Shown here: piece after piece, positions 61,885 through 64,000 of the stretch
Layout: every line of letters begins with the position of its first letter
Position numbering within the stretch: the stretch's first letter is position 1
DNA from: Bacteroidota bacterium
Lineage (GTDB): Bacteria > Bacteroidota > Bacteroidia > UKL13-3
Assembly: GCA_030680835.1 (NCBI GenBank)
Contig: JAUXUD010000062.1
Location: forward strand, 156,057 to 220,056
Length of the DNA stretch: 64,000 bases
Direction: 5' to 3'
Made by a program: the position numbers and the translations under genes
The notes under the pieces: model-generated
Databases searched by the model: none
What the model was told of the DNA's origin: nothing
Seen by the model: the letters and a program-made list of their open reading frames with translations, nothing else

Positions 61885-62026
61885 GCACTTAACGGTAACG
61901 GTTTCTTGCTAAAAGCAGTTGGGAATTCGAAGCCACAAAACTTTCATGCGAAACGAATTACAAATAGAAAGAAAAAATTTCACTTTTCCACGTCAACCCC
62001 AATTGATTTTAGCAAGTGTTATAACC
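61885..62026 (-). mobile_element. attC-like element C
   Basis: Imperfect palindrome; internal arms TTGCTAAAAGCAGTTGGG / CCCCAATTGATTTTAGCAA; bottom-strand core GTTAAGT matches GTTRRRY. Confidence 0.6.
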
Positions 62027-62195
62027 TGATAGGTTGTGCAAACCTTAAGCAGACTTCAAAACTTGGAATTCGCGAAATGGTCCTCAAGAAAAGTCAAGTT
62101 TGGAGTAATGATTGTCAGTTTCAGATTGACATTTCTGCAGTTAAACTTACTCAAATGTTGGTCAAGGTTGACTTACAATTTGGCCAAACCCTTGC

Positions 62196-62777
62196 TTAAT
62201 ATTCACAATACAATTGAGTAAAACATTTGATGACTGAATTTCGAAAAAACACATCGTTGCTCATGGTCAGATTACCAGAATTATTTTTGACCTTTAATGA
62301 ATAAAAGCATCGCTCACAGAAGACTTTGTAATACCTTTCCGATTGAGTTCTTTTATTATAAATTTCTACACTGGTTAATACAAACACATGGCCATTCCAA
62401 ACCTTTGTAGGTTTGTTAATTTCTGTCAACTTTACTAACTCATCATTTGATGTAAAAAATAAGGAAGAATCAACTTGGTATTGGTAAACGCCTACCTTTA
62501 ATAAATATTTAGCGTTAAGTAAACCGCTTTCAATCAAAGTTGCAATTGAGTCATCATTTTCATAGAGAATTCTGAACGACTCCTCCCCAATACAGTTTAT
62601 GGTGTCAGTTGGTTGGTCACCTACTTGTATTAATATTTTACCAACTTTACCTTTTATTTTAATTTCTGTGGGGTTGCAGTCAACAACCTTGGTAGTGTCG
62701 TTACCCTGGAATGCAACTTGTCCGTATGAGGTGAAGCTGATAATTAATAATAAAGATAGGATTTTTGATTTCGGCAT
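62196..62777 (-). CDS. Secreted hypothetical protein, cassette-borne
   Basis: Signal peptide MPKSKILSLLLIISFTSYGQ; lies between attC-like elements C and A with the element at its 3' side. Confidence 0.65.
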   Translation of the reverse strand: MPKSKILSLLLIISFTSYGQVAFQGNDTTKVVDCNPTEIKIKGKVGKILIQVGDQPTDTINCIGEESFRILYENDDSIATLIESGLLNAKYLLKVGVYQYQVDSSLFFTSNDELVKLTEINKPTKVWNGHVFVLTSVEIYNKRTQSERYYKVFCERCFYSLKVKNNSGNLTMSNDVFFRNSVIKCFTQLYCEY

Positions 62778-62943
62778 TTTAATTTATATTATCGTTAAAC
62801 TGAGTCGGTGCCATAGAGATCTATCTAAAACGGATTTTGCATTGTGTGTTATGTGAAATTTATATTTTCCTTCGTTCAAGATTTTTCATTGCATTTGTTT
62901 GTAGTTAAACGAAATTGTCCTACTTATATTCTTAAACCTACTT

Positions 62944-63079
62944 GGTTATAACGATTTGGGGGTTTGCGATGGCAGGGAGTTTTAGCAATATACTTCATTC
63001 GGAGAACTGAAGTTCCACCTTGCACAAATGTGTCTGCGAAGCACATCACCCCCGCTAACGCAAACCCCTTGTTATGCGG
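62944..63079 (-). mobile_element. attC-like element A
   Basis: Arms GGGGGTTTGCG / CGCAAACCCC; ends GGTTATAAC and GTTATGCGG; similar over its length to element B. Confidence 0.65.
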
Positions 63080-63101
63080 TCGTGCATTCATTGTCAAGCT
63101 A

Positions 63102-63800
63102 CTATTTAGCAAAATATCTGTCCCCATTCGAAAACTCAAAGCCAACGACCCCTTTCGGTATTATATAGTAAACGCCATAAGGGTGTGTTTCAGGTCTAAG
63201 ATAAGAAAGACCAGTTGTGTCATAGTAAGTATAAATCACATTGGCGTAAAATTTGTTTCCTAACGTCACAGTATCAAAATACTTATATCTTGCGGTTACC
63301 CATCTGTCTTTAGGATAAATGGAAAAATTATAATTATTTAGATTTACTTCCAACCCATCTTGTGTTTTATCTTTATTTTGTGGGCTATTAACCAGAGCAT
63401 TTAAATCCCAATAGTATTTAGTCCTTCGGATCGTGATTGTTATAAGATTGCCTTTAAAAATTTTGTCTTGAATTGGATAGCTATAATAGTCTTGGTTACT
63501 ATGGCTCTCACATTCACCATCGGCAACTGAATAGCCAAATCCAATATTCTGTTTTTCAATGGAATTTATAAGGCCATTTGAAGTAAATGTAATAATATTG
63601 TTTATTTGGTTTGAAAAAACTAAGGCTTGGTCTATAGAATCAACCCAATATTGAGTAGAGTCATTCAAAAGCAAATCACCCTTTTTAATATTTTGAGTCG
63701 GCCCTGGCATTCCCGAACCGCTACCACATTTACTGCAGCTATTAGTGGATAGGATAACTATTCCAGAGAGAAATACCCCAAAAATGTTAGAAATATTCAT
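63102..63800 (-). CDS. Lipoprotein-like hypothetical protein, cassette-borne
   Basis: Lipobox-like ILSTNSCSKCGSG; flanked by attC-like elements A (3') and B (5'). Confidence 0.65.
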   Translation of the reverse strand: MNISNIFGVFLSGIVILSTNSCSKCGSGSGMPGPTQNIKKGDLLLNDSTQYWVDSIDQALVFSNQINNIITFTSNGLINSIEKQNIGFGYSVADGECESHSNQDYYSYPIQDKIFKGNLITITIRRTKYYWDLNALVNSPQNKDKTQDGLEVNLNNYNFSIYPKDRWVTARYKYFDTVTLGNKFYANVIYTYYDTTGLSYLRPETHPYGVYYIIPKGVVGFEFSNGDRYFAK

Positions 63801-63857
63801 AGTATCTATTCATTAGTCATAATGGTTTTCGTTGTCGAAGGTTTGTCGTTCTGCATG

Positions 63858-63994
63858 CCGCATAACGATTTGCAGATTTGCGATGGGCGGGCTTTCCACC
63901 ACAAATGTTGATGCGGAGCACTGAACTTTCTGTAACCACAAATCTGTCTGCGGAGCATAAAACCCCGCCTATTGCAAATGTGCTGTTAGCGGTT
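63858..63994 (-). mobile_element. attC-like element B
   Basis: CCGCATAACGATTTGCAGATTTGCGATGGGCGGG ... CCCCGCCTATTGCAAATGTGCTGTTAGCGG. Confidence 0.65.
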
Positions 63995-64000
63995 CGTTGT

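Follow-up and report, generated by a model that had tools for sequence, protein, structure and literature searches.

A gene-cassette array in a Bacteroidota genome and an associated family of integron-like tyrosine recombinases without the I2 insert

Three attC-type sites at the end of a contig

The window, by which we mean the whole 64-kb stretch of DNA analysed here, corresponds to positions 156057-220056 of contig C39 in a 4.30-Mb genome (G000) assembled into 104 contigs. Towards its end lie three imperfect palindromes, all on the minus strand, whose limits as defined by a covariance model are 61891-62026 (site A), 62944-63079 (site B) and 63858-63993 (site C). An initial annotation had seen them at nearly the same places, and the limits needed only small corrections. 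The model (R1) was built within this analysis and its E-values are rough; it recognizes all three sites as significant, at 82-100 bits: site A at 100 bits (E 3.3e-23) and site B at 82.2 bits (E 9.4e-19), both part of the training set, and site C, which was held out of training, at 92.6 bits (E 2.4e-21).

Site C stands at the 3' end of a cassette, the body of which extends past the contig end. As the contig stops at 220056, exactly at window position 64000, the array has been cut by the assembly, and the final 7 bases (63994-64000) belong to the truncated upstream cassette. Next on the minus strand comes cassette 1 (62952-63865, 914 bp), which runs from the TT of the core of C to the G of the core of B and is closed at its 3' end by site B. 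Cassette 2 (61899-62951, 1053 bp) runs likewise from the TT of the B core to the G of the A core, and site A ends both this cassette and the array. Each cassette carries one minus-strand ORF with the palindrome on its 3' side, as first noted. The ORF of cassette 1 (63102-63800) encodes 232 residues with a lipoprotein-like N-terminus and has no match in Pfam, NCBIfam or PADLOC; that of cassette 2 (62196-62777) encodes 193 residues with a signal peptide-like N-terminus and has no match in Pfam or NCBIfam.

The cassette-specific complementarity of the cores was also borne out, in the form of two exact 9-nt pairs. In cassette 1, GTTATGCGG (63866-63858) pairs with CCGCATAAC (63079-63071), and in cassette 2, GTTATAACC (62952-62944) pairs with GGTTATAAC (62026-62018). 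One core had been misplaced. GTTAAGT, previously taken for the outgoing core and ascribed to 'element C', lies 6 nt beyond the real outgoing core of site A, GTTACCGTT (61899-61891, minus strand), which moves the start of A from 61885 to 61891. This core marks the junction between the array and non-cassette DNA.

A detector that demands both exact core pairing and hairpin arms recovers the two cassettes of the window. In the remainder of the 64 kb, the best covariance-model match reaches 10 bits (E=1), and an Rfam scan of the window gave no match at gathering score. A plain hairpin scan that did not impose the AACA...CGTT rule was discarded, as it picked up several unrelated palindromes. The bodies of both cassettes were not found in 64 genomes of the family, in which similarity is found at the level of the attCs only. 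The palindromes of the window are attC-type recombination sites of mobile gene cassettes, and the early proposal of an integron cassette array was right in kind. Clusters of attC sites without an integrase are known as CALINs (PMC9024848, PMC9668308). Contig C39, on which no integrase was found, resembles them in this respect and carries three attCs. It differs in that its array is cut by the contig end and that the genome has, elsewhere, a complete integron of this type.

Cassettes, hairpins and cores in the genome and beyond

A search of the genome with the covariance model yielded about 28 attC sites (E<0.01), several of them scattered singletons. They include one complete integron on contig C71, where the integrase with an adjoining array that had been looked for is indeed found. 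There, a 364-aa tyrosine recombinase, identified by an IntI family search, is followed about 95 bp past its stop codon by an attI site, G|TTATGCAC (L024:10655), and then by two core-paired cassettes, again with exact 9-nt pairing. The first attC begins with GTGCATAAC and ends with GTTACCACC, and the following one, a close relative of element A of the window, begins with GGTGGTAAC. A cluster on contig C98 opens with a 137-bp copy, 78% identical, of the integrase C-terminus and attI (L200:4379-4515), which stops at GTTA and gives way to cassettes. No intact integrase was found upstream of this cluster, a second integron of the genome in a decayed state.

Solo cassettes were also seen at attI-like TATAAAGAA|GTT positions (L021:9688-10305, i.e. 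C39:93688-94305, and L201:4735-5843). No neighbouring integrase was found for either, and these positions are possible candidates for secondary (attG-like) sites. On contig C6, L022:8986-10309 contains three attC matches, one seemingly nested in or truncating another. A long near-perfect palindrome on contig C56 (L023:3003-3098), between TGCAATAAC and GTTATTGCA, is not an attC of this family.

The hairpins conserve structure and little sequence, as canonical attCs do. Among 63 diverse attCs, compensatory changes occur in all 18 stem pairs, and 87% of the stem cells are paired, versus 54% when shuffled and 33-44% when slid (0/500 shuffles). The near-invariant bases are AACA and CGTT. In 78 of 111 sites the stem holds a conserved A opposite C, which is T-G on the bottom strand, and it shows no clear bulge. 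The arms are predicted to be more stable on the bottom strand in 86/111 cases, a modest bias; for element B of the window, folded whole, the top strand is slightly better.

The pairing of cores extends well beyond the window. When consecutive attCs in 80 loci were detected without use of their cores, all six variable bases paired in 47 of 64 cases, versus a shuffled-partner expectation of 2.4%, and within a single attC the two ends matched in only 3/101. Insertion of cassettes at G|TT gives rise to such a pattern, and none of the other explanations considered does. The deviation from GTTRRRY that had been remarked upon in the window is real but not local to it, as cores deviate throughout the family: the canonical motifs (RYYYAAC for R'' and GTTRRRY for R') describe just 7 of 111 distinct cores, and GTTR describes 109. 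GTTA is near-universal, and the position of the cut inside GTT therefore cannot be placed from the sequence alone.

We identified 158 cassettes in 59 loci, arranged in tandem and in the same orientation, each with one ORF and a 3' attC. The main ORF is on the attC strand in 149/155, and its stop codon precedes the attC by a median of 12 nt. Single cassettes have been exchanged between genomes with breakpoints at GTT. One of 1443 bp is shared at 94.3% identity by two distant genomes, Flavobacterium denitrificans, where it stands first at attI, and a Bacteroidia bacterium MAG, where it lies deep in the array; the homology begins at the G of GTT and stops a few bases beyond the next GTT. A second cassette, of 808 bp, is 96% identical in two species of the genus of the window and is likewise bounded by GTT. 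The expectation of breakpoints at the cores thus holds for homologous cassettes of other genomes, which run from GTT to GTT, but not for the two cassettes of the window, which were found nowhere else. As for cargo, the products of the cassette ORFs collected in alignment A3 (window and L021-L219) include MerT/HMA, GNAT and cNMP-binding (Crp/Fnr-type) proteins, as well as GmrSD-type proteins, Schlafen-type helicases and restriction-like proteins.

A recombinase family outside the canonical integron integrases

The genome thus contains a tyrosine recombinase, but not a canonical IntI with its I2 insert. Residues R219, K244, H309, R312, H335 and Y344, which we take to be catalytic from knowledge of the family, are conserved among 13 members. 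The distance between the GKG hairpin and HxxRH is 65-66 residues where measurable, as against 107 in canonical IntIs, and is 68-73 in two Xers of the same genome. The missing segment of about 41 residues is the I2 insert (LPxALxRKYPxA...WxWxxVFP). IntI from the PDB aligns to the C71 integrase in two pieces around this gap, and XerA aligns through. An AlphaFold model of the integrase (pLDDT 81, pTM 0.51) predicts no helix at the I2 position; structurally it comes closest to 2A3V, 4A8E and 5HXY, with TM-scores so low that the model adds little to the sequence evidence. Against TIGR02249 the whole protein scores 209 bits, the best value in the genome and below the curated cut-off of 265, a family model that is not discriminating by itself under its cut-off since Xer-like enzymes score equally in all 14 controls. 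In phylogenies, canonical IntIs form one clade that excludes the C71-type family (support 100/99). Judged by these sequence comparisons, the C71-type integrase is not a canonical IntI. The trees, in which IntI is monophyletic without this family, do not support the idea that the family lost I2 secondarily from within IntI; a grouping of IntI with the C71-type family is not rejected (p-AU 0.14), and the sister-group order and the root are unsure.

Canonical integrons, such as those of IntI1, of Vibrio cholerae IntI4/IntIA (2A3V) and of the IntIs in other Bacteroidota classes, share with the present system an integrase, an attI, an array of single-ORF cassettes with hairpin attCs, a G|TT-type junction, cassette-borne cores and array contents that vary between genomes. 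They differ in having the I2 insert of about 41 residues, the C71-type integrase being without it and outside the IntI clade, and in their cores, which are GTTRRRY rather than GTTR. Unlike them too, the C71-type integrase carries about 60-80 additional residues as an N-terminal domain, and its gene points towards its own attI. In Spirochaetota reverse-orientation integrons (PMC9668308), compared by description, the integrase is also read in the direction of the cassettes; unlike the C71-type enzyme, it is an IntI. The N-terminal domain (residues 1-80, L024:9466-9705, alignment A1) has mixed strands and helices, occurs in most members, has no Pfam match passing the cut-off and is a candidate replacement for I2.

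The closest domain architecture without the insert is that of XerA/XerC-like recombinases (NF040815, 4A8E, 5HXY), which are chromosome-maintenance enzymes not known to have cassette arrays. Tyrosine recombinases beside IS91-type transposases are I2-less and IntI-related as well; no cassette array was seen with them, and they are placed next to IntI and not with the C71-type family (95/83). On rhizobial plasmids, L238 and L239 encode such I2-less, IntI-related tyrosine recombinases, one of which directly adjoins an IS91 family transposase.

Homologues of the C71-type integrase are present in 36 of 60 relatives, mostly as one copy per genome, and arrays were detected in most genomes of the family to which the window belongs. 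The contigs of relatives often stop 0.1-0.6 kb downstream of the integrase gene, as expected where short-read assembly meets a repeat array. All 36 relatives with the integrase have attCs, and all five without attCs also are without the integrase (p=0.008, a value that takes the genomes as independent; they are related and mostly drafts). In the other 19 of the 60, attCs are present with no integrase match at E<=1e-60; they could be relics or reflect missed divergent enzymes or assembly gaps.

A named scan returned 80 loci, nearly all from Bacteroidota, with many records of Flavobacterium (including isolates), Pedobacter, Algoriphagus, Cyclobacterium and Chryseobacterium. Two, both from MAGs, are titled outside the phylum (L073, Ignavibacteria; L106, Azoarcus). 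Paired cassettes follow the integrase, in places up to eight in tandem, and the upstream control gave one match in all upstream regions combined. Under strict criteria, 25 of the 80 loci have a paired cassette that begins at attI. The attI consensus is TATAnAnnA|GTT; where the assembly continues, the site commonly lies some 100 bp past the gene, and all 25 strict loci have A at -1 and ATA at positions -8 to -6. On a plasmid of Chryseobacterium sp. SNU WT5 (NZ_CP041688.1, L198:16001-30953), the integrase is followed by six strong attC matches, and a group II intron reverse transcriptase and an IS110 transposase lie inside the array. Another genome carries the integrase twice on a single contig, with some 60 kb between the copies (G034:C1:172505-173539 and 232326-233360, L061 and L062), with paired cassettes in both stretches.

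Cassette mobility and the place of the I2 insert

We consider it very probable that the window ends in part of a Bacteroidota integron cassette array, whose cassettes a C71-family recombinase most likely moves via folded attC. This reading draws on cassette anatomy, core inheritance, covarying structure, a conserved attI, the linkage of recombinase and arrays, and GTT-to-GTT exchange. The tyrosine recombinase would most likely bind the folded attC strand, presumably the bottom one, cut between the G and TT of the core, and link the cassette with an attI (TATAnAnnA|GTT) or a further attC. The bases 3' of the cut (TTRnnnnn) would then move along with the cassette, which explains the pairing between its opening bases and the beginning of its own attC. 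We infer that the family does the cutting, and the C71 enzyme may act in trans on the array of the window.

Long imperfect palindromes that lie 3' of genes, with several singletons scattered in the genome, might suggest dispersed REP- or MITE-like repeats or terminators unrelated to site-specific recombination. Cassette-specific paired cores, an attI beside a recombinase and GTT-to-GTT exchange are unexpected for such elements and already contradict this explanation, to which we give hardly any credence. The attCs might instead be those of a CALIN of canonical type, moved by an I2-containing IntI of another replicon or of the past. The cassette logic would be identical, and canonical IntIs do occur in the phylum, with 84/296 genomes above the TIGR02249 cut-off; the genome of the window has none, and among the genomes listed only one of the same class does. 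Twelve canonical-IntI genomes of other classes bear on this point. Of the eight without a C71-type enzyme, seven have no such attCs by the covariance model; the exception, G244, has them with a canonical IntI and otherwise Xer-like enzymes only, as this explanation would have it, although a relic, a missed divergent enzyme or an assembly gap could also lie behind this case. Three of the four that do have the enzyme (G350, G064, G292 and G121) also have these attCs, the related enzyme of G121 being present in a genome without covariance-model matches. As arrays moreover lie directly behind C71-type recombinase genes, a canonical origin appears very improbable.

Somewhat less remote, yet still unlikely in our view, is a related cassette system with a different mechanism, in which the recombinase would act on double-stranded sites in an Xer-like manner and the hairpin would have another role. 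An Xer/XerA-like enzyme without I2 and an only moderate folding preference for the bottom strand fit this idea. The stem, in which 18 pairs covary and little of the sequence is conserved, instead indicates that a folded strand is recognized, and the bases at each junction are inherited from one side only, as a single-strand cut at G|TT would have it. Against mobilization by a C71-type recombinase stands the missing I2 insert, which IntI1 is held to need for capturing cassettes (PMC7790495). The system is integron-like in its working, yet it fails two defining features of IntI and attC.

Integrons are defined in practice by an IntI with the I2 helix. According to one account, cassette capture depends on this insert, which was also the innovation from which integron integrases arose (PMC7790495). 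In Bacteroidetes, only In0s had earlier been known, and IntegronFinder 2.0 reports one complete integron, in Salinibacter ruber (PMC9024848); the 11 taxa for which a survey of attCs built models do not include Bacteroidetes (PMC8352920). One tyrosine recombinase classification notes incomplete conservation of the insert within its integron-like subgroup (PMC8138268), and I2-less relatives are thus known as sequences and not, as far as we found, as integrons. Our search of the open-access literature, with preprints and subscription journals outside its scope, yielded no description of an I2-less integron family. A widespread kind of integron with an I2-less integrase has apparently not been described, and we regard this novelty as provisional.

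With an integron family that follows the same cassette logic but has no I2, the proposed requirement for this insert becomes directly testable, and a major phylum has here a route of gene exchange that earlier counts seem to have missed. On balance, we lean towards the view that this is a widespread Bacteroidota integron lineage whose integrase never had I2, with a large cassette pool largely missed by current integron tools. If so, cassette recombination would either be older than I2 or have evolved twice.
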